A stretch of 33,385 bases of DNA from Deltaproteobacteria bacterium (GCA_021372415.1 JAJFUM010000198.1:1-33385), one strand, 5' to 3'; counted from the first letter of the stretch, positions 359 through 14,592 are shown. Notes: a model not told the origin generated them from the letters alone. A program made the numbers and translations.

Positions 359-1372
359 ATGAACAGCCGAGAGAGGGTGGCAGCAACGCTGCGATTCAAG
401 AATCCGGACCAGGTGCCGGTGGACATGTGGATCCATCGGGCCACCCAGTTGAAATACGGAAAGGATCTCGACGCCCTTCTGGAACAGCATCCGCTGGATA
501 TTGTCAGGATGTTCGGCCCGACGGACCGAAACTTCTACCCCGAGATGTCGGACGTCGGGGATATCCGGGACGCCTGGGGCAGTACCTGGAGGGTCCTCCG
601 CCAGGGCATCAACGGAGAAGTCAAGATCCCGGCCATCGACGATATCGCCAAGGTCGGGGCCTACCACACTCCGCTGGAGTGGCTGGAGCAGGAATGGCGG
701 AAGCACGGGGATAACATCGACCGGAAGATCGAGGAGGGCCGCAGGAAGAACCGGTTCATCCTGGGGGGATACATCGAACTGTTCCAGAGGATGCAGTTCA
801 TCCGAGGCACCGAGAACCTCTTCTACGACATGGCAGGCGAGCCGGAAAGGGCGGCAATCCTCAGGGACAAGGTGCTGGAGTATTTCAAGGTTTATCTCCA
901 GTACTGGCTGAAGAAGGATGTCGATGCCATCTACTTTTCCGACGATTACGGGACCCAGAGGGCCCTTCTCATCTCCCCGAAGATGTGGAGGGAGTTCTTC
1001 AAGCCTGCCTACCAGGAGATCATGAAAACAATCAAAGATTCCGGAAAGTTCATCTTCTACCACACCTGCGGCCATGTGTTGGAGCTGTACCCTGAATTGA
1101 TCGAGCTGGGGATCGACGCGATCAATTCCCAGATCTCCTGCATGGGCCTGGAGAATATTGCAGACCGGTTTGCGGGAAAGATCACCTTCTGGGGGGAGAT
1201 GGACCGGCAAGGCCTGCTGCCCCACGGGACCCCGGAGGAGATCCGCCGTACCGCCGCCGAAATGAAGACAAGGCTCTTTGTCAACGGCGGGGGGTTGATC
1301 GGGCACAGTGTGGCGGGGGTCGATGTTCCCCTGGAGAACATCAAGGCCATCCTGACCTGCTGGAACCCCTAA
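359..1372 (+). CDS. uroporphyrinogen decarboxylase-fold (MtaA/UroD family) methyltransferase
   Basis: The 337-residue protein resembles the UroD superfamily branch that moves methyl groups between substrates, corrinoid proteins and thiols or folates, rather than heme-pathway HemE. The N-terminus (MNSRERVAATLRFKNPDQVP) is typical of these proteins. The zinc-site motif HTCGH lies at residues 235-239, matching the H-x-C of MtaA-type enzymes. The third ligand, usually a Cys in a Gly-Cys near the C-terminus, is not seen; the matching stretch reads GGLIGHSVAG at 311-320. The start at 359 is chosen for AGGAG at 347-351 with 7-nt spacing; the frame is open upstream to 176 but has no initiation site. 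It is the first gene of an operon that ends with its likely partner, the corrinoid protein at 4299. A substrate-specific MttB-type methyltransferase is absent, so this enzyme may itself demethylate the substrate (inference). Confidence 0.85.
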   Translation: MNSRERVAATLRFKNPDQVPVDMWIHRATQLKYGKDLDALLEQHPLDIVRMFGPTDRNFYPEMSDVGDIRDAWGSTWRVLRQGINGEVKIPAIDDIAKVGAYHTPLEWLEQEWRKHGDNIDRKIEEGRRKNRFILGGYIELFQRMQFIRGTENLFYDMAGEPERAAILRDKVLEYFKVYLQYWLKKDVDAIYFSDDYGTQRALLISPKMWREFFKPAYQEIMKTIKDSGKFIFYHTCGHVLELYPELIELGIDAINSQISCMGLENIADRFAGKITFWGEMDRQGLLPHGTPEEIRRTAAEMKTRLFVNGGGLIGHSVAGVDVPLENIKAILTCWNP

Positions 1373-1378
1373 CGGCCC

Positions 1379-1398
1379 GGCGTCGCCGTCCTGACGCC
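1379..1398 (+). other. intercistronic hairpin between methyltransferase and dctP
   Basis: GGCGTC (1379-1384) and GACGCC (1393-1398) form a perfect 6-bp stem with an 8-nt loop in the 89-nt gap before dctP. No T tract follows, so it is more likely an mRNA processing or stability element than a terminator. Confidence 0.25.
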
Positions 1399-1461
1399 CT
1401 GCCGTGATCGCTGTTCCAGCCCAACTTGGACCGTTTCAGAAGAAAGGAGGAGGCACGACCA

Positions 1462-2451
1462 ATGAAAAAATGGATTGTTTTGACTATCTTCATGGTTTTG
1501 TTCATTCCTTCAGGAATCACCTTCGCCGCGATGCAGATGAGCGTCGCCTACAGCGGTTCTCCCGGCGCCGAGGAAGACCTCGCCGCCATACAATTCAAGA
1601 AATGGATCGAGGAGAGGACCAAGGGGCAGATCGATGTGAAGCTGTTCGGCAGCGAGCAGCTGGGCAAGGAGGTCGACATCGTATCGGGGCTTCAATTGGG
1701 CAGCGTCGACATGTCCATCATGGGCACCACCATCCATGAGCAGGCCGCACCGCGATACAACATCTGGAGCGCCTATTACATCTTCGGAAGCAGCGACGAG
1801 GTGGCGCACGTCCTGAACGGACCGATCGGCCAGAAGGTCAATGCGGAAATGCTCAGCAACAAAGGCATCCGCATGATCGGTTATGGCCTGAGAGGTCCGC
1901 GGAATCTGACCTCCAACCGGCCGATCAAGGACCCCAAGGACGTAAAAGGCCTGAAGATCAGGATCCCCCTCCAACCCATCTATGTGGAAAGCTGGAAGGA
2001 ATTGGGCGCCCAGCCCACGGCGATCGCCTACGGCGAACTCTATCTGGCCCTGAAGCAGGGGGTAGTGGACTCCCAGGAGAATCCCCTCTCCTACATCTAT
2101 ACCCCGGCCTTCTACGAGGTCCAGAAGTACGTCAACGTCACCGAGCATCAGCGGGCCTTCTTCACCTACGTGGTCGGCGAAAAATTCTTCCAGCGCCTGA
2201 ACCCTGAACAGCAGAAGATCCTCATTCAAACCGGAAAGGACATCACCGTCTATCACAACAATCTTCAGGCCAAGATGGAAGGACAATGGAAGCAGAAACT
2301 GATCGACAAGGGGATGACCTTTGTCGCGTCGGACCAGGCCGCGTTTAAGGATCGATTAAAGGACATTCCCAATAAATTCGCCAGCCAGTGGGCCCCGGGC
2401 CTCTATCAGGAGATCCAGAAGGAAATCAAGGAATACCGTCCCAAAAAATAG
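1462..2451 (+). CDS. dctP: TRAP transporter substrate-binding protein (DctP family)
   Basis: This periplasmic solute receptor of a tripartite ATP-independent transporter has 329 residues, normal for DctP. The N-terminus is a clear Sec signal peptide (MKKWIVLTIFM, hydrophobic core, cleavage likely after TFA). The family core is visible: GLKIRIP with the conserved Arg that usually binds the substrate carboxylate, followed by LGAQPTAIAYGELYLALKQG and VVDSQENP. The start at 1462 has a strong AAGGAGG at 1444-1450. The receptor predicts a carboxylate-bearing ligand, but its identity cannot be read from sequence. It is followed by a terminator-like hairpin and then by both membrane subunits, so the receptor is probably made in excess over the permease. 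Confidence 0.93.
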   Translation: MKKWIVLTIFMVLFIPSGITFAAMQMSVAYSGSPGAEEDLAAIQFKKWIEERTKGQIDVKLFGSEQLGKEVDIVSGLQLGSVDMSIMGTTIHEQAAPRYNIWSAYYIFGSSDEVAHVLNGPIGQKVNAEMLSNKGIRMIGYGLRGPRNLTSNRPIKDPKDVKGLKIRIPLQPIYVESWKELGAQPTAIAYGELYLALKQGVVDSQENPLSYIYTPAFYEVQKYVNVTEHQRAFFTYVVGEKFFQRLNPEQQKILIQTGKDITVYHNNLQAKMEGQWKQKLIDKGMTFVASDQAAFKDRLKDIPNKFASQWAPGLYQEIQKEIKEYRPKK

Positions 2452-2458
2452 AGGATCA

Positions 2459-2487
2459 GGGGAGAGGGGCTCCTCTCCCCATTTTTT
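2459..2487 (+). terminator. partial intrinsic terminator between dctP and dctQ
   Basis: GGGGAGAGG (2459-2467) pairs perfectly with CCTCTCCCC (2472-2480) around a 4-nt loop and is followed by A and six T residues (2482-2487). This is a textbook rho-independent terminator shape inside an operon. Partial read-through would give high receptor and low permease expression, and the stem would protect the 3' end of the dctP message. Confidence 0.85.
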
Positions 2488-2521
2488 CATAAAAGCCTTG
2501 ATAACAGGGAGGGTATCCGTA

Positions 2522-2998
2522 ATGGGATCGAAACTGGCAGTCATGATCGAAAGGATCAACGGGGTCCTGTTGGCGATCATCGTTGTCCTTCTTTTTCTGC
2601 AGGTGGTCACCCGCTATGCCAACATCACGGCCTTTCTCTGGGCGGGGGAGGCGGCCCTCTGGATCTTCGTCTGGGTGGTCTTTTTGGGGACAGCGGTCCT
2701 TTTCCACAGGAAAGAGCACATGATCGTGGATATCATCGAATATTTCCTGCATGGGGAAACGAAGGCGAAGGTTCAGAGAATACTGGCCGTCATCATCAAG
2801 ACGGTCTGCTGGGTCTTCCTGGCCGTCATCTTCTACTATTCGATCCTCTTTACAGCGTCCGTGGCCAACCAGTACGCGGTTTCCTTCAGGCTATCGAGGC
2901 TCTACCTCAGTGCCGCCCTGCCGGTCTCCATCGTCATCATGGTCATCTTCGAGATCCTCTCTCGATACGACAAGACAAGGGGGGACGAATCATGCTGA
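2522..2998 (+). CDS. dctQ: TRAP transporter small permease subunit (DctQ family)
   Basis: This 158-residue inner-membrane protein has four hydrophobic segments: about residues 12-32 (LLAIIVVLLFLQVVT), 40-62 (AGEAALWIFVWVVFLGTAVLF), 85-110 and 125-150. That layout and its place between DctP and DctM identify the small TRAP subunit. The motif AGEAALWIFVWVVFLG is characteristic of DctQ proteins. The ATG at 2522 is preceded by GGGAGG at 2508-2513, so I prefer it to an in-frame TTG at 2498. The 3' end overlaps the dctM start by 7 nt (ATGCTGA), which indicates translational coupling. Confidence 0.92.
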   Translation: MGSKLAVMIERINGVLLAIIVVLLFLQVVTRYANITAFLWAGEAALWIFVWVVFLGTAVLFHRKEHMIVDIIEYFLHGETKAKVQRILAVIIKTVCWVFLAVIFYYSILFTASVANQYAVSFRLSRLYLSAALPVSIVIMVIFEILSRYDKTRGDESC

Positions 2999-4272
2999 CG
3001 ATGGTCGCAGGGATCATGATTGTGGGTTTCGTCATCGGCCTGCCGGTGGCCTTCACCTTGGGAACGGCCACCATGGCCTATTTCTTTGCCTCCCCCTACC
3101 TCTCCCCCGCGATGATCCCCCTGAACATCATCACCGGGACCCAGGCGGAGAGCTTGATGGCCATCCCCCTGTTCATGCTGGCAGGCGGGATCATGAACAC
3201 CTCGGGCCTTACCGAACGGCTCTTCCGGTTCAGCAAGAGTCTGGTCGGCCATTTCCCCGGCGGGACAGCCCAGGTGAACGTCCTGGCCAACCTCATCATG
3301 GCCGGGATGTCGGGTTCCGAATTGGCCGACGCCAGCGGAATCGGGAAAGTTCTGATCCCGACCATGAAAAAAGAGGGGTACGACAGCGAATTTGCCGCCG
3401 CCCTGACAGGTGCGGCCTCTACAATCGGTCCCATCTTTCCTCCCAGCATCCCGATGGTCCTGATCGGAGGAATTACCGGGATCTCGATCGGCAAGTTGTT
3501 CGTCGGGGGCGTCATCCCCGGCATCTTCATGGCGGGATACCTGATGGTCATGGTCTATTATCTGGCCAAGAAAAGGAACTATCCGAGGTCAGAACGGGTC
3601 CCCCTCAAGGAATTGGCGAAGTCCTTTGTGATCTCCATTCCGGCACTGAGCGCACCGGTCATCATCATCGGCGGGATGGTCACCGGAATCTTCACGCCGA
3701 ACGAAGCCGGCGTCGTGGCCTGCTTCTATGCCATGGCGATCGCCCTATTCGTCTATCGGGACCTGAAATTGTCCAAGGTCTTTTCGGAACTGGTGGCCAC
3801 CGCCATATATACGGCGAAGATCATGTTCATCGTGGGTTGCGCCTATGCCCTCGCCTGGGTTTTCTCTCGGGAACAGATGGGGCTCTACCTGACCAAAGTC
3901 CTCACTTCGGTTTCGGCGGATCCGACCGTCATCCTCTTTCTGATCGTCATGTCCTTCCTGATCGCCGGTTGTTTCCTGAACCCCTCCGCCCTGATCATCA
4001 TCTTCATCCCCTTGCTCATGCCGGTGGTGAACAGCGTACACATGGACCCCGTCGTCTTCGGCGTGGTGTCTACGCTGGCCCTGATGATCGGCCTGATGAC
4101 CCCGCCGTTCGGATTGTGCATGTACATCGTCTGCGATATCGCCAAGATCTCCGTGAAGCAGTTGACCATCGCCTCTTTCCCCTTTTATGTCGTCCTGCTG
4201 CTCGCCCTCTTGACGATGATCATCTTCCCCCAGACGGTCACCTATTTGCCGAATCTGCTCTTTGCCAAATGA
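2992..4272 (+). CDS. dctM: TRAP transporter large permease subunit (DctM family)
   Basis: This 426-residue membrane protein is the sodium- or proton-coupled transport subunit of the TRAP carrier. It is hydrophobic throughout with about 11-12 membrane segments. DctM hallmarks are visible: FMLAGGIMNTSGLTERL near residues 60-75, AGMSGSELADASGIGKVLIP near 103-122, the PPSIPMVLIGG stretch near 150, and the second-repeat elements GCFLNPSALIIIFIPLLMP and LMTPPFGLCMY. Length is normal for the family. The gene overlaps dctQ and ends 26 nt before the corrinoid protein, so transporter and methyl-transfer genes form one transcription unit. Confidence 0.95.
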   Translation: MLTMVAGIMIVGFVIGLPVAFTLGTATMAYFFASPYLSPAMIPLNIITGTQAESLMAIPLFMLAGGIMNTSGLTERLFRFSKSLVGHFPGGTAQVNVLANLIMAGMSGSELADASGIGKVLIPTMKKEGYDSEFAAALTGAASTIGPIFPPSIPMVLIGGITGISIGKLFVGGVIPGIFMAGYLMVMVYYLAKKRNYPRSERVPLKELAKSFVISIPALSAPVIIIGGMVTGIFTPNEAGVVACFYAMAIALFVYRDLKLSKVFSELVATAIYTAKIMFIVGCAYALAWVFSREQMGLYLTKVLTSVSADPTVILFLIVMSFLIAGCFLNPSALIIIFIPLLMPVVNSVHMDPVVFGVVSTLALMIGLMTPPFGLCMYIVCDIAKISVKQLTIASFPFYVVLLLALLTMIIFPQTVTYLPNLLFAK

Positions 4273-4298
4273 CTGGCCAAACAGGAGGGTATCCGACC

Positions 4299-4931
4299 AT
4301 GTCGATTTTGGATGAGATCAAGGAAGGCGTCGTCGCCGGAAACGCGAAGAAAGTCAAGGAATCCACGGAGCGCGCCGTGTCCGAAGGGTTGGCCGTTGCC
4401 GGCATCCTCAACGACGGCCTGATTGCCGGCATGAACATCATCGGCGCCCGGTTCAAGGTCAACGAGGTGTACGTCCCCGAGGTCCTGATGTCGGCACGGG
4501 CCATGCACACGGGGATGGCCGTCATCAAACCGCTGATCGTCAGCGCGGGGATCGCGGAAAAAGGGACGATCGTCATCGGCACCGTCAAGGGCGACATGCA
4601 CGATATCGGCAAAAACCTGGTGATCATGATGCTGGAAGGCGCTGGCTACCGCGTGGTCGACCTGGGCATCGACGTGCCGACGGAACGGTTCATCCAGGCC
4701 TTCGACGAGCACAAGCCCCAGGTGGTGGGCCTCTCGGCCCTCCTGACGACCACCATGCCGCAGATGCAGGAGACGGTCGAAGAACTCCGTGCCCATCACG
4801 ACAAGGTCATGATCGCCGTGGGGGGCGCCCCGGTCACGGATCGGTTCGCCCGCGAGATCGGGGCGGACGGATATGCCGCCGACGCGGCAAGCGCCGTGGA
4901 CATAGTGGCGGCCCTGACTGCGAAAGCCTGA
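4299..4931 (+). CDS. cobalamin-binding corrinoid protein of a methyltransferase system
   Basis: This 210-residue protein is a cytoplasmic methyl carrier of the MtaC/MtbC/MttC type. Residues 1-85 look like the helical cap that covers the cobalamin (SILDEIKEGVVAGNAKKVKE ... GMNIIGARFKVNEVYVPEVL). Residues 90-210 are the Rossmann B12-binding domain with the cobalt-ligand signature GDMHDIGKN (D-x-H-x-x-G), followed by VDLGIDVP, SALLTTTM and VGGAPV. The start at 4299 is set by AGGAGGG at 4283-4289; the frame is open far upstream only as an out-of-frame shadow through dctM. It should accept or donate the methyl group handled by the UroD-fold enzyme at 359. A reactivating ATPase (RamA type) is not in the window. 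Confidence 0.93.
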   Translation: MSILDEIKEGVVAGNAKKVKESTERAVSEGLAVAGILNDGLIAGMNIIGARFKVNEVYVPEVLMSARAMHTGMAVIKPLIVSAGIAEKGTIVIGTVKGDMHDIGKNLVIMMLEGAGYRVVDLGIDVPTERFIQAFDEHKPQVVGLSALLTTTMPQMQETVEELRAHHDKVMIAVGGAPVTDRFAREIGADGYAADAASAVDIVAALTAKA

Positions 4932-5078
4932 CCGTAAAGGCCGCCTCGCTCCGGGCGGGAAATTCGTGCCGGTCCCGGGTCCCGAAGATCCCTGAGGCAG
5001 CCCTGCGCTCTGCCTTCTCTTGGATCCACAGCACGCTCCCGGCCCTGTCAAGCGGTTCGTATGCATGTCGAATTCCCG

Positions 5079-5107
5079 TTGACAGGCGGAAGTGCATTCT
5101 CTATTCT
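5079..5107 (+). promoter_or_regulatory. near-consensus sigma70 promoter for the acid sugar kinase gene
   Basis: A perfect TTGACA (5079-5084) is followed after 17 nt by TATTCT (5102-5107, 4 of 6 matches). The expected transcription start near 5114-5115 lies only 2-3 nt before the ATG at 5117. No Shine-Dalgarno sequence precedes that ATG, so the message may be effectively leaderless. The 185-nt gap after the corrinoid gene holds only a weak GC hairpin (CCGCC/GGCGG at 4941-4958) and no T-tract terminator. Confidence 0.65.
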
Positions 5108-5116
5108 TCCAAAATC

Positions 5117-6445
5117 ATGCGACCATCCCATTCCGACAAGAGAATCGGTGTCATTGCCGACGACCTGACCGGCGCAAACGATACGGGGGTGCAGTTCGCC
5201 AAGCAGGGCTTGACGACCCTCGTTTTGATGGGAACGCACCTTACTCCTGGCGGGCTCGAAGAGGACGTGGTGGTTGTGGACTGCCGGAGCCGGGCCCTGG
5301 CGCCTGAGGAGGCCTACCGGAAGGCGGCCCAGGCGGCCCTGCTGTTCAAGGACAGCCGGTTTCGCTTCATCTTCAAAAAGATTGATTCCACGCTGCGCGG
5401 CAACATCGGTCGCGAAATCGACGCCGTTATGGATACCTGTGGACAGGAGCTGGCTATCGTCGCGCCCGCCTACCCCAGGAACGGCCGGACCACCATAGGC
5501 GGCTACCACCTGCTCCACGGCATCCCCCTGGAGGACACGGAGATCGCCCGGGACCCCAGATGTCCGATCCGGGAATCCCACATTCCGACCCTGTTGTCAG
5601 GACAGACCCCCAGAAAGGTGGGACACGTGGGGATCAAGGCGGTCGCCGCCGGCCAGGAGGCCATTCTGGAGGCAATGAGGGAAAGGATCGCCGCTGGCGA
5701 GCAGGTACTGCTGTGCGACATCTGGCAGGACGAACACTTGAAGATGCTGGCCGCAGCAGGGATGCGTCTCGGCAAGCCACTCCTGTGGGTCGGTTCGGCC
5801 GGATTGGCGGAGCACCTGCCGCCCCTGCTGGGGCCGGTCGAGCCGCCGGATGGGAAGGACCCGGCAGGGGCAAGGCTATCGGAAGGGAAAGCGGTGGTTG
5901 TCCTGGCCGGGAGCGTGAGCCCTGTAACCCGTAGCCAGGTGGGGATGCTCATACAGAGGGCGGATGTCGAGTGGATCGAGATGGACCCGTGTACTCTGCT
6001 GCAACCGGAAGCGGCAACCCATGAAATCAGCCGCTGTCTGGACGCGGCCCTCGACGCCGTGAAGTCCGGCCGGAATGTCGTGATGACGACCGGATACGGC
6101 GGTGATGCCGTGGACAAGGTTCGGAAGGAGGCCTTCGCTTTGGGCCTTCCCGTCCAGGAAACCGCAGAGAGGATCGCCGACGCCCTGGGCGATCTTGGCC
6201 GGCGGATCGCTGCGGGCGAAACCCTGGCCGGCCTCGTTTTGACGGGCGGGGACATCGCCGCGAGCGCCTGCAGTCTTCTTTCGGCCACCGGGATCAGGAT
6301 CATCGAAGAAATCGCCCCGGGGATCCCTTTGGGGATGCTGAAAGGCGGACCCTTTGACGGTCTGAAGGTCGTTACGAAGGCAGGTGCTTTCGGTGCGGAA
6401 GATGCCCTGTGCAAGGCGGTGGCTCGTCTGAAACGGACCCCCTGA
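5117..6445 (+). CDS. four-carbon acid sugar kinase family protein (DUF1537, OtnK/DtnK-like)
   Basis: This 442-residue protein has the two-domain DUF1537 layout. The N-terminal domain begins with the substrate-binding signature IGVIADDLTGANDTGVQFAK and contains FKKIDSTLRGNIG. The C-terminal nucleotide-binding domain starts near residue 255 (VVVLAGSVSPVTRSQV) and ends with VLTGGDIAASA and TKAGAFGAEDAL. Characterised members phosphorylate threonate, erythronate or related acid sugars at C4. The product is then oxidised and decarboxylated by a PdxA2-type enzyme, and such an enzyme is encoded convergently at 6563-7588. The ATG at 5117 is the only sensible start because ADDLTGAND lies immediately behind it. 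The exact acid sugar cannot be assigned. Confidence 0.9.
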   Translation: MRPSHSDKRIGVIADDLTGANDTGVQFAKQGLTTLVLMGTHLTPGGLEEDVVVVDCRSRALAPEEAYRKAAQAALLFKDSRFRFIFKKIDSTLRGNIGREIDAVMDTCGQELAIVAPAYPRNGRTTIGGYHLLHGIPLEDTEIARDPRCPIRESHIPTLLSGQTPRKVGHVGIKAVAAGQEAILEAMRERIAAGEQVLLCDIWQDEHLKMLAAAGMRLGKPLLWVGSAGLAEHLPPLLGPVEPPDGKDPAGARLSEGKAVVVLAGSVSPVTRSQVGMLIQRADVEWIEMDPCTLLQPEAATHEISRCLDAALDAVKSGRNVVMTTGYGGDAVDKVRKEAFALGLPVQETAERIADALGDLGRRIAAGETLAGLVLTGGDIAASACSLLSATGIRIIEEIAPGIPLGMLKGGPFDGLKVVTKAGAFGAEDALCKAVARLKRTP

Positions 6446-6562
6446 GAAGGGACCCCATCGTGAAGCGCGGCCCGGCTCGACCGCTAACCGCCCATCGGGA
6501 TCAGCGTCAAGTCACGGCACTGTACTGCAAGATAAGGCGATCTTCCCTCCATCCCTAGCCCG

Positions 6563-7588
6563 TCAATCCTTTGAGGCGAACCGGGCGGCGACCCGGAGCG
6601 CATCCACCATGCTCTCGGGGTTGGCCCGGCCCTCACCCGCCTTGCCGAAGGCCGTCCCGTGGTCCACGGACACCCGGATGATCGGCAGCCCGCAGGTGAT
6701 GTTGACGCCGGAGACGCTCCCCCAGGTGTTCGTCCGGACATCGTACTTGAAACCGATGATCTTGGTGGGGATATGTCCCTGGTCGTGGTACATGACCACC
6801 ACCAGATCGTACTGCCCCCCCTGCATCTTGGAAAAGACCGTATCCGGGGGGATCGGTCCATCGACGCTGAACCCCTCCGACCGGGCCTGCCGGATGGCCG
6901 GATCGATCTCCTCGATCTCCTCGCGGCCCATGAGGCCCGCCTCGCCCGCGTGGCAGTTGAGCCCCGCCACGGCGATCCGCGGCTTGTCCACCCCCAGCTT
7001 CCGCACGGCGTCGTATCCGAGACGGATGACCCGGAGGACCCGGTCCTTCTTGACCCGGTCGCAGGCCTCGCGCATCGACACATGGGTGGAGACATGGATC
7101 ACCCTGAACTGGTCGTGGACCAGCATCATGGCGTAATCCTTCGTATGGGTGAAATCGGCATAGATCTCCGTATGGCCGGAATACTGGAAGCCGGCCAGGT
7201 TGATGGCCTCCTTGCTGATGGGTCCGGTCACCGTGGCATCGACTTGGCCGGCCATCGCCAGGTCGATCACCTTCCTGACGTATTCGAAGGAGGCGCGGCC
7301 GGTTTCGGCGGCGGCGATCTTGTGCCGGATGTCAGACGGCTCGATGTTCTTGAGGTCCAGCACGTCCAGGATGCCGCACCGGTAAAGCCCCTCCCCGGGG
7401 GCGGCCACGGGGCGCACTTCCAGATCCAGCCCGGAAAAACGGACAGCCTCCAGCATCATCCGCGATTCCGCGACGAGCAGGGGCCGGCACATCTCATAGA
7501 TTTCCGGCATGGCGAGAGCCTTCGCGGCAATCTCCGGCCCGATCCCCGCCGGATCGCCGACGCTGATTCCGATCAATGGTTTTTTCAT
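6563..7588 (-). CDS. pdxA2: PdxA2-type 4-phospho-acid-sugar dehydrogenase (4-hydroxythreonine-4-phosphate dehydrogenase family)
   Basis: The 341-residue protein is a full-length member of the PdxA family of NAD-dependent decarboxylating dehydrogenases. ISVGDPAGIGPEI at 8-20 is the N-terminal signature. The metal-binding histidines are in place: H169 (VSTHVSMREA), H213 (NCHAGEAG) and H268 (YHDQGHIPTK). YHDQGHIPTK is typical of the PdxA2 branch; vitamin B6 biosynthetic PdxA usually has YHDQGL. With the DUF1537 kinase next door, the predicted reaction is oxidation and decarboxylation of 4-phospho-threonate or -erythronate to dihydroxyacetone phosphate. The start at 7588 follows an AGAGGGA sequence. 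The two genes are convergent with 117 nt between them and no clear terminator. A housekeeping PdxA role is less likely but possible. Confidence 0.88.
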   Translation of the reverse strand: MKKPLIGISVGDPAGIGPEIAAKALAMPEIYEMCRPLLVAESRMMLEAVRFSGLDLEVRPVAAPGEGLYRCGILDVLDLKNIEPSDIRHKIAAAETGRASFEYVRKVIDLAMAGQVDATVTGPISKEAINLAGFQYSGHTEIYADFTHTKDYAMMLVHDQFRVIHVSTHVSMREACDRVKKDRVLRVIRLGYDAVRKLGVDKPRIAVAGLNCHAGEAGLMGREEIEEIDPAIRQARSEGFSVDGPIPPDTVFSKMQGGQYDLVVVMYHDQGHIPTKIIGFKYDVRTNTWGSVSGVNITCGLPIIRVSVDHGTAFGKAGEGRANPESMVDALRVAARFASKD

Positions 7589-11926: not shown

Positions 11927-13900
11927 TCACGGGGTAATGATGTTGAACCACGGATCCAGTTCGTCCAGGCAGGACATCATCTCGACAAACTTCAGCGTCC
12001 GCCCCTCGACCCGGATATCCCCGGCCAGGATCCGGCCGAGGAAGGTGGCCTGCTTGGCCGCGATGGCGTTGAAGACCTCGCGGCTCAGGTAGACCGTCGC
12101 GTCTGGGTCGGGGTGGAGCCTGTCCCGCTTGTGGTTCAGGACCCCGTTTTCGAGGGTGACGGCGTATCGCTCCTCGGGATTGCTGAAGATCCAGTTAACG
12201 GCGATCCTTTTGCCTTCCGCCTTCGGCCCGTTGAGGCGGACGGCGAGCAGATCGAAAAAGGTCCCGAGGGGCACCGTCCGGATGACATCGCCCCCTGCCT
12301 GCTGCAGGGGGGCGTCCCTGCGGACCCCGCTGCGGAGCTCCATAGCCCCGGAGAGATAGAAGTTCCGCCAGACGGCCGATTCTGACTGGTAGCCGAGCTG
12401 TTCCAGGGCGTCGGCCTGGAGTTCCCGGGCATCCTGGTTATCCGGCTCGGCAAAGATGACGTGGTTGAGGGCCTGGACCACCCAGCGGTACTCGCCCCTG
12501 CGGAGATCCTCCCGGGCCCGGGCCAGGACAGATGCCGATCCTCCCATGTACTGCAGGTATTTCCTCGCCGCATCCTCGGGCGGAAGAGGCTGGAGGTTGG
12601 CGGGATTGCCGTCGAACCAGCCGAGGTAGCGCTGGTAAACGGCTTTCACGTTGAAATGGACGGTCCCGTAGAAATCGCGGGTGTACCACTCCGCCGCAAG
12701 GCTCGCGGGAAGAACGATCATTTCCGCACATTCTGCAGGCGTATATCCCCGGTTCATGAGGCGGACCGTCTGGTCGTGGATGTACCGGTAGAGATCCCGC
12801 TGCTTCTTCAGATAATCGGTGATCACCTCCCGGCCCCAACGCGGCCAGTGGTGGGTGGTGAAGAGGACCTCTGTCCCGCCGGCGAACAGGTCGATCGCCT
12901 CGTCGATGAAACGGGACCAGGCCCTGGCGTCGCGCACCTGGGCGCCGCGGGGGGTGAGCAGGTTGTGCAGGCTTGCCGAGACATTCTCGGCCATGCACAG
13001 GGCCTTGAGTTCGGGGAGGTGGAAATTCATCTCCACAGGGGCCTCTGTCCCGGGCGTCTGCTGGAAGACGAATCGGACGCCGTCGATCGTCATCTCCTGA
13101 AGGGGGCTTGCGATCTCCTCGGTGGGGGGGATGAAGCTGACTGTCCCGCCGGAGGCGGCCTTGCCGATTCCTGCATCGACCTGCCCCTTGGGTCCTTTCG
13201 GCAGGAGACCGCCGAACATGTACGCGGAGCGGCGCGCCATGGCGTTTCCCGCCAGCAGGTTTTCGCTGACCGCCTCCCGGGCCAGCCCTGCGGGGGCGAT
13301 GATCCGGACCTTCCCGGCCGCGACGTCCGCGGCGTCGACGATGCCTTGCACCCCTCCCCAGTGGTCGACATGGCTGTGGGTATAGATCACCGCCACCACA
13401 GGCTTAACGGGGAGATGCCTGCGCAGGAGCTCCAGCGCCGCCCGCGCCGTTTCCACCGACATCAGCGGGTCGACGGCGATGTAGCCGGTCTTCCCCTCGA
13501 TGAAGGTGAGGTTGGTGATGTCGTATCCCCGCACCTGGTAGATGCCGTCGGTGACCTTGAAGAGGCCCTGCACCGCATTGCGGCGGGCATGCCGCCAGAG
13601 CGCCGGGGGAACCGTATCCGGGTTCGACGAATCCGCCGCCAGGAAACCGTACGGCCGGGTATCGAAGACCGGTTTTCCATCCTTGCTGCGGATATCGACG
13701 GCAGGATCGGCGGCAATGAGGCCGCGGAGGGAGAATTCGGACTCCTGCCGGTCATCGGCCAGGAGGGTCGAGGGGAGCCGGCTGTTCATCTCCCGTGTCC
13801 TGGAGTCGGCTTCCTTTGGGCCGGAGGCTGCCATCGCCGCCGGGGCGGCACCGCAGAGAAGCGCGACGGCCAGAAGGATGCGTGCGCCTGTCTTTTTCAT
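11927..13900 (-). CDS. periplasmic alkyl sulfatase-like metallo-beta-lactamase hydrolase (SdsA1/YjcS family)
   Basis: The 657-residue precursor matches the three-domain SdsA1 class. A signal peptide covers residues 1-24 (cleavage near AMA-AS). The metallo-beta-lactamase domain has the dinuclear zinc motif THSHVDHWGG (H175, H177, D179, H180), AENVSASLHN and TTHHWPRWG. These are followed by the alkyl-sulfatase dimerisation region (around 400-530) and an SCP2-like C-terminal domain that may bind the alkyl chain. Family members hydrolyse primary or secondary alkyl sulfates such as SDS, releasing sulfate and an alcohol. The usual THxLHN near the second metal site reads SASLHN, so specificity could differ. 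The start at 13900 is chosen for the signal peptide and GGGAG. It is monocistronic and converges with azlD. Confidence 0.9.
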   Translation of the reverse strand: MKKTGARILLAVALLCGAAPAAMAASGPKEADSRTREMNSRLPSTLLADDRQESEFSLRGLIAADPAVDIRSKDGKPVFDTRPYGFLAADSSNPDTVPPALWRHARRNAVQGLFKVTDGIYQVRGYDITNLTFIEGKTGYIAVDPLMSVETARAALELLRRHLPVKPVVAVIYTHSHVDHWGGVQGIVDAADVAAGKVRIIAPAGLAREAVSENLLAGNAMARRSAYMFGGLLPKGPKGQVDAGIGKAASGGTVSFIPPTEEIASPLQEMTIDGVRFVFQQTPGTEAPVEMNFHLPELKALCMAENVSASLHNLLTPRGAQVRDARAWSRFIDEAIDLFAGGTEVLFTTHHWPRWGREVITDYLKKQRDLYRYIHDQTVRLMNRGYTPAECAEMIVLPASLAAEWYTRDFYGTVHFNVKAVYQRYLGWFDGNPANLQPLPPEDAARKYLQYMGGSASVLARAREDLRRGEYRWVVQALNHVIFAEPDNQDARELQADALEQLGYQSESAVWRNFYLSGAMELRSGVRRDAPLQQAGGDVIRTVPLGTFFDLLAVRLNGPKAEGKRIAVNWIFSNPEERYAVTLENGVLNHKRDRLHPDPDATVYLSREVFNAIAAKQATFLGRILAGDIRVEGRTLKFVEMMSCLDELDPWFNIITP

Positions 13901-14592
13901 GATTGACTCCCTGATTGAAGAAATGACCGAAATTGGACTCACGGCATACGGATCAGCCGAAACCGGGAACCCTCCGGTTTCTCACACCCCCTGACGATTA
14001 TGGGGATCTATTGGCGCTATGGCCCGATCACCTGAAACGATAACTGCCGTCCGTATCTTTCTTTGTATATTGTAAAAGCAGAAGATTGGCAATTCAGTTC
14101 CTAACAGGCTGTATCTTCCTTGCCTGATTTATACATCAAGAATGGATTCCTGTATGCCTCCCGCAACGATCTACAGCATAACAATGCGGATTTATTTGTA
14201 TTTCACGAAAAGATCTGGTCTATCAAGGGGCAAGGGATATGCCCTTATATGACCGGCGCAACAGGGTTGACCTGTCCGGACCTGTTAAAACAAGCGTTTT
14301 GTTACGATCGTGAATGATGATATATGTCTAACAGCATGGATTCGGTCCCGGCGCGGGCGGGGCCGGCCGCGCCGAATCCGCCCTGCTGGCTCCGGGCCCA
14401 GGCCGTGACCTGAGCAGGACCTGTTCCGACAGCGGGGGTCTGACGAACGCCCGTCGCGTCGGTGCAGGCCTCTCATGCGCCAACCTTGCAGAAGGCATGA
14501 CCGCCACGACGATTGAACGGGAGCACAAGAAGGATATAAGGAACATCACCGGCCAGACGGATCGCCGATTCAGAGGAGGGACTCGTAAGACC
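13901..14592. other. long AT-richer intergenic region without a recognised gene
   Basis: This 692-nt gap separates two divergent genes and must hold both promoters. From about 14000 to 14340 it is visibly richer in A+T than its surroundings. A 65-codon plus-strand frame at 14120-14317 lacks a ribosome binding site and family features. Small stems occur: AAAAC/GTTTT at 14285-14298 and an imperfect AAGGGGCA/TGCCCTT at about 14226-14247. From about 14340 the sequence returns to high GC. No tRNA, riboswitch or mobile element is recognisable. Confidence 0.5.

Follow-up and report, generated by a model that had tools for sequence, protein, structure and literature searches.

Why should a transporter for organic acids sit inside a set of genes for corrinoid-dependent methyl transfer, and do the sugar-acid genes beside it belong to the same pathway? 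The question is raised by positions 359 to 7,588 of a 33,385-bp stretch of DNA, the window of this analysis, which is an entire contig (C184) of a Deltaproteobacteria bacterium (GCA_021372415.1; 3.95 Mb in 477 contigs) taken to be a member of the Syntrophales. A protein of the UroD superfamily, a tripartite ATP-independent periplasmic (TRAP) transporter (DctP, DctQ and DctM) and a corrinoid protein are encoded here, followed by a DUF1537 kinase and a PdxA2-type dehydrogenase. We put the probability at roughly 55% that the first five genes, 359–4,931, form one operon for the import and demethylation of a methylated organic acid.

A conserved five-gene operon

The five genes are closely packed on the plus strand, with gaps of 89, 46, −7 and 26 bp. 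A scan with the UroD protein of one genome per species returned a single close relative, in Syntrophaceae bacterium UBA6112, where the operon has its closest named relative. All five genes recur there in the same order, with identities of 79% (UroD), 85% (DctP), 72% (DctQ), 84% (DctM) and 70% (corrinoid protein), and the spacing at the last two joints, −7 and 26 bp, is that of the window. DNA similarity between the two loci extends from 359, the start codon of the UroD gene, to 4,917, within the corrinoid gene. The flanks are unrelated; in UBA6112 they carry a PrpR_N/sigma-54 activator upstream and RNase H-like and aconitase-family genes downstream. The rate of nonsynonymous substitution (dN) was far below the synonymous rate (dS) wherever both could be estimated, dS being saturated for UroD, as under purifying selection. 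These data show that UroD-DctP-DctQ-DctM-corrinoid is a real conserved unit with sharp boundaries. A reading of the window made beforehand from the sequence only had placed the methyltransferase, the transporter and the corrinoid protein in one operon, which the order, identities and boundaries shared with UBA6112 bear out, and Pfam recovered each of the families that it had named for the seven genes (Table 1).

Table 1. Features of the operon and its neighbours, numbered from the first base of the window
Feature	Coordinates	Strand	Evidence
UroD-superfamily protein, 337 aa; proposed substrate:corrinoid methyltransferase (methyltransferase I, MTI)	359–1372	+	PF01208, 73 bits
DctP, TRAP solute-binding protein, 329 aa	1462–2451	+	PF03480, 238 bits
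Strong hairpin then T-run, between DctP and DctQ	2459–2480	+	Consensus scan
DctQ, TRAP small membrane subunit	2498–2998	+	PF04290, 73 bits
DctM, TRAP large membrane subunit, 426 aa	2992–4272	+	PF06808, 384 bits
Corrinoid protein, 210 aa; cap domain and B12-binding domain with D-x-H-x-x-G (as G-D-M-H-D-I-G)	4299–4931	+	PF02607, PF02310
DUF1537 four-carbon acid sugar kinase (SBD_N and NBD_C), 442 aa; neighbour outside the conserved operon	5117–6445	+	PF07005, PF17042
PdxA2-type dehydrogenase, 341 aa; convergent neighbour outside the conserved operon	6563–7588	−	PF04166, 331 bits

Relatives of the UroD protein above 1e-100 occur in 2 of 155 Syntrophales genomes and, in phylum samplings of 247 and 395 genomes, in the window's own genome only. 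In the genome set UBA6112 has a counterpart, G369, which belongs to the same family as the window's genome. As the window begins at a contig end, no sequence is visible upstream of base 1, and a search for a sigma-54 promoter upstream of the operon returned only sites with two mismatches, not above chance. The hairpin between DctP and DctQ may raise the level of DctP above that of the membrane subunits. A hairpin of different sequence lies at the same joint in UBA6112 (locus L008); across the whole region terminator-like sites are not above chance.

Components of the proposed methyl-transfer system

The UroD-fold protein is a member of its superfamily, as its score exceeds the PF01208 cut-off and its structural model, of modest confidence (four sequences; predicted local distance difference test (pLDDT) 68, predicted template modelling score 0.72), matches uroporphyrinogen decarboxylases (Z ∼22) and, at Z 20.1 and 3.6 Å over 293 residues, 4ay7, the methylcobalamin:coenzyme M methyltransferase. 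Methionine synthases rank lower (Z ≤ 15), and the non-appearance of the chloromethane methyltransferase CdmB among the 50 fold matches listed counts neither way. His235 and Cys237 align with the His-x-Cys of 4ay7, while the third metal ligand, a Cys, is replaced by His316 or Ser317, according to the placing of a one-residue gap. The protein therefore lacks the His-Cys-Cys metal site of the S-methyltransferases MtaA, MtbA and Mlp. Against the MtaA/CmuA model TIGR01463 it scores 63 bits (cut-off 235.4), and its plasmid relatives are distant matches only (CmuA, 21%). In the UroD superfamily S-methyltransferases have the His-Cys-Cys site and O-methyltransferases have one or both Cys replaced (PMC10418091). 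By this rule, and as judged from the sequence, the loss of the third Cys makes the protein lean to O-demethylation, the substitute being His or Ser and not Asp or Glu.

An established kind of methyl-transfer system combines a UroD-superfamily MTI with a corrinoid protein, a methyltransferase II (MTII) and an activase (MtvB, OdmB, VdmB, MtoB, CdmB; PMC13222342, PMC8630106). The window's corrinoid protein, which scores 249 bits against the MtgC-like model (cut-off 370), provides the partner within the cluster, and the other two parts are present in the genome. The sole RACo-type activase is encoded on contig C367 (L121:14166–16196), directly downstream of a second operon ordered DctQ-DctM-UroD-DctP-corrinoid, and adjoins on the other strand a further set of UroD, corrinoid and DUF1638 genes. 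A protein on contig C52 passes the model for methyl-tetrahydrofolate:corrinoid/iron-sulfur protein methyltransferase (MeTr) at 265 bits, the cut-off being 259. MttB (PF06253), reported missing from the window by the sequence-only reading, is absent from the whole genome and from G369, with Methanosarcina acetivorans as a positive control. As the activase and the methyl-tetrahydrofolate methyltransferase are present and MttB is absent, the UroD protein is the best candidate for the demethylase, a role already proposed for it and a reasonable one.

The TRAP transporter and its probable substrate class

Each of DctP, DctQ and DctM scores over its Pfam cut-off. Of the solved structures, 4pc9/4pcd is the closest to DctP (202 bits, 38% identity; the runner-up scores 149 bits), and we take it to bind six-carbon aldonic acids, a lead rather than a finding. 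DctP retains the Arg in RGPRNLTS as well as the QENP segment, neither of which is found in the DctPs of two other loci, L095 and L040. In a tree of 45 DctPs, whose rows were chosen as best hits, the window pair of DctPs grouped with DctPs linked to kinase/PdxA2 genes and with other methyl-linked DctPs (support 97/95). A structural model of DctP from two sequences was unusable (pLDDT 34). The most likely class of substrate is a carboxylate bearing hydroxyl groups.

Predicted pathway and the aromatic alternative

The steps of transport and catalysis that we infer from gene content, order, conservation, sharp boundaries, superfamily membership and the occurrence of the remaining components in the genome are as follows. 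DctP would bind a carboxylate, probably of the hydroxy-acid or sugar-acid type, for DctQM to bring into the cell. The UroD-fold protein would transfer an O-bound methyl group to the Co(I) of the corrinoid protein, from which the MeTr-type enzyme would hand it to tetrahydrofolate, and the single RACo-type activase would rescue corrinoid that had become oxidized. Several points weigh against this pathway. The exact five-gene operon was found in just two genomes; activase and MeTr are encoded on contigs other than the window's, and their tie to the operon is a presumed one; the identity of the third metal ligand depends on an alignment with a nearby gap, and the structural model of the UroD protein is modest (pLDDT 68).

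The acid might instead be a methoxylated aromatic, imported and O-demethylated as in the MtvB, OdmB and MtoB systems, with the TRAP transporter replacing the usual importer. The characterized O-demethylases of the superfamily do use methoxylated aromatics (PMC13222342, PMC8630106), and the lost third Cys fits O-demethylation. MtvABC, OdmABCD and MtoABCD also share with the operon the UroD-fold methyltransferase and its corrinoid partner, with an activase and a methyl-tetrahydrofolate methyltransferase in the genome (PMC13222342, PMC8630106). The operon differs from them in its dedicated TRAP importer, with activase and MTII encoded elsewhere in the genome. The window contains no aromatic-ring genes, 4pc9, the solved chain nearest to DctP, is presumed to bind aldonates, and no known O-demethylase could be tied closely to the UroD protein by sequence. 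We consider an aromatic substrate unlikely, though it is the best of the alternatives.

Recurring TRAP/UroD/corrinoid clusters

The predicted import and demethylation of a hydroxylated acid can be set beside other loci, which were fetched by similarity to the UroD or corrinoid protein, with transporters disregarded. UroD, corrinoid and TRAP genes occur together in nine clusters from five Syntrophales genomes: the window, C367 and C104 in its own genome, C9, C20 and C78 in G369, and one each in G376, G370 and G367. Loci with UroD and corrinoid genes and no TRAP genes are about as numerous as the nine. Gene order varies among the clusters, and in some the UroD and corrinoid proteins are fused into one, which makes repeated reshuffling of the association probable. 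When the window is compared with the C367 operon, identity is 74% for the corrinoid protein but 34% for DctM, 28% for DctP and 21% for UroD. A conserved carrier with divergent substrate-facing parts would be expected if the carrier had to fit a shared activase while importer and methyltransferase followed the substrate. The nine clusters, all from one order, thus suggest a modular cassette in which the carrier is conserved and the importer and methyltransferase are exchangeable. More tentatively, the TRAP-plus-corrinoid cassette of the Syntrophales may demethylate non-aromatic O-methylated acids, such as O-methyl sugar acids or methoxy hydroxy acids, with carrier and activase held constant and DctP and UroD swapped together; this broader proposal is possible but falls well short of the confidence placed in the operon itself.

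Two arrays on a contig of one of these genomes (G376:C116) were also observed. In L094:1754–11730 genes for MttB, a corrinoid protein and DctPQM stand with those for hydantoinases A and B and an Asp/Glu/hydantoin racemase, which looks like a set that takes up a compound of the N-methylhydantoin type, N-demethylates it and opens its ring. L095:1264–18887 is densely packed: it has two UroD-corrinoid fusions and an MtaA-like UroD protein that keeps His-Cys-Cys, together with two TRAP sets, a RACo activase, a LarA-like gene and a regulator of the GntR/FCD type.

The adjoining kinase and PdxA2 genes

The sequence-only reading had joined the kinase and PdxA2 to the operon in one pathway, in which a methylated C4-type acid would enter the cell and lose its methyl group, the DUF1537 kinase would phosphorylate it, and PdxA2 would oxidize and decarboxylate the product. 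The genes are neighbours, and kinase/PdxA2 loci often own a TRAP set (L110, L116, L117 and L118), the window pair having only that of the operon. The grouping of the window's DctP with kinase/PdxA2-linked DctPs favours the same pathway, as does L094, where the hydantoin-opening genes beside a TRAP/MttB/corrinoid set indicate that catabolic genes can accompany such sets.

The arrangement of the genes argues the other way. PdxA2 is encoded on the minus strand and converges on the kinase, which rules out a single operon of all seven genes. The kinase starts 185 bp beyond the corrinoid gene, and the gap holds a promoter-like site (TTGACA-17-TATTCT, 5,079–5,107), although such sites are not enriched in the region (2 observed, 2.7 expected from shuffles). 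DNA similarity with UBA6112 stops before the kinase, at 4,917; in that genome the kinase/PdxA2 pair is on the operon's contig but ∼28 kb away and on the opposite strand. The pair is absent from the UBA6112 operon and from eight other TRAP/UroD/corrinoid clusters. Of 155 Syntrophales genomes, 12 encode a relative of PdxA2 (E < 1e-90), and no UroD or corrinoid gene was found near any of the 11 other PdxA2 loci (L032, L110–L119; pieces of 3.9 to 18 kb). The sequence-only reading had itself named kinase/PdxA2 loci devoid of methyl-transfer genes in relatives as its refutation, and all 11 loci are of this kind. The combination of operon, kinase and PdxA2 is thus unique to the window within the sample. 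The window's DctP is 27–31% identical to the kinase-linked DctPs, on which ground its TRAP set was rejected as an ortholog of theirs.

The two enzymes themselves have different nearest relatives. PdxA2 is 88–90% identical to proteins of a sister genus, but the kinases that accompany those proteins share only 34–36% identity with the window kinase, which is 59–61% identical to the kinases of L116, L118 and L119. Neither reaches the cut-off of the model for the D-threonate pathway (kinase, 320 bits against 450 for the NCBIfam equivalog; PdxA2, 314 against 583 for PRK03371, D-threonate 4-phosphate dehydrogenase); PdxA2 passes the general pdxA model TIGR00557 (323 bits, cut-off 290), and its nearest solved chains are 2hi1, 4jqp and 6e85. 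As in the known four-carbon acid sugar pathway the two enzymes are adjacent; in 8 of the 11 other loci the kinase lies upstream of PdxA2 in the same direction, whereas the window pair is convergent and stands beside an unrelated operon. The joined pathway is consequently improbable, somewhat more so than an aromatic substrate: its first half, import and demethylation, stands on the conserved operon, and its second falls with the absence of kinase and PdxA2 from the sister operon and of operon genes from all 11 other PdxA2 loci. The kinase and PdxA2 would serve a separate threonate-type acid pathway, adjoining the operon in this genome only.

Two further loci were noted among the neighbours and relatives. 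L149 (G371:C8) has, in a single row, a DUF1537 kinase and DctPQM followed by partial matches to a second kinase and to PdxA2, and may be an acid-sugar operon that was broken or duplicated. Further along the window, at 11,927–13,942 on the minus strand, lies a gene for an alkyl sulfatase-type protein of the metallo-beta-lactamase fold.

Relation to known corrinoid systems

The five-gene operon predicted to import and demethylate an acid resembles two further kinds of system in part. The CdmBCA chloromethane system of Acetobacterium dehalogenans also relies on the UroD superfamily, and its CdmB shows that zinc may be dispensable for a methyltransferase of this superfamily (PMC13222342). CdmB (9rui) is matched, with an E-value of 6e-9, by a profile built from the window's relatives, but the window UroD protein is ∼90 residues shorter and gives no match alone, and its operon has an acid importer. 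Type 1 mlp clusters likewise hold UroD-superfamily and corrinoid proteins together; there at least two Mlps and a Ram protein are encoded in the same direction, and the metal site is His-Cys-Cys (PMC10418091). By comparison, the window encodes a single UroD protein, which is without the third Cys, and it lacks Ram, the only activase being on C367. That the UroD protein acts on an S-methyl, N-methyl or haloalkyl compound, or runs in reverse to methylate the imported acid, is the least probable alternative. S-methyltransferases and haloalkane dehalogenases do belong to the superfamily (PMC10418091, PMC13222342) and the His and one Cys are retained, but the His-Cys-Cys site is incomplete, the MtaA/CmuA score is 63 of 235 bits and volatile haloalkanes would need no acid importer.

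No account of a TRAP-coupled corrinoid demethylase was found in a search of the open full-text literature, closed-access papers lying outside the search. One paper on D. hafniense that mentions both TRAP and corrinoid was set aside, as its TRAP set is one for isethionate and its RdhUVW cluster is unrelated.

Significance

Anaerobic demethylation supplies methyl groups to syntrophic and methanogenic food webs, and for many UroD-superfamily methyltransferases the substrates are unknown. An importer in the same operon offers a direct handle, because DctP can be screened for its ligand, which would point to a candidate substrate of the methyltransferase. Were the proposed cassette real, nine clusters or more, in five genomes, would be open to this approach.

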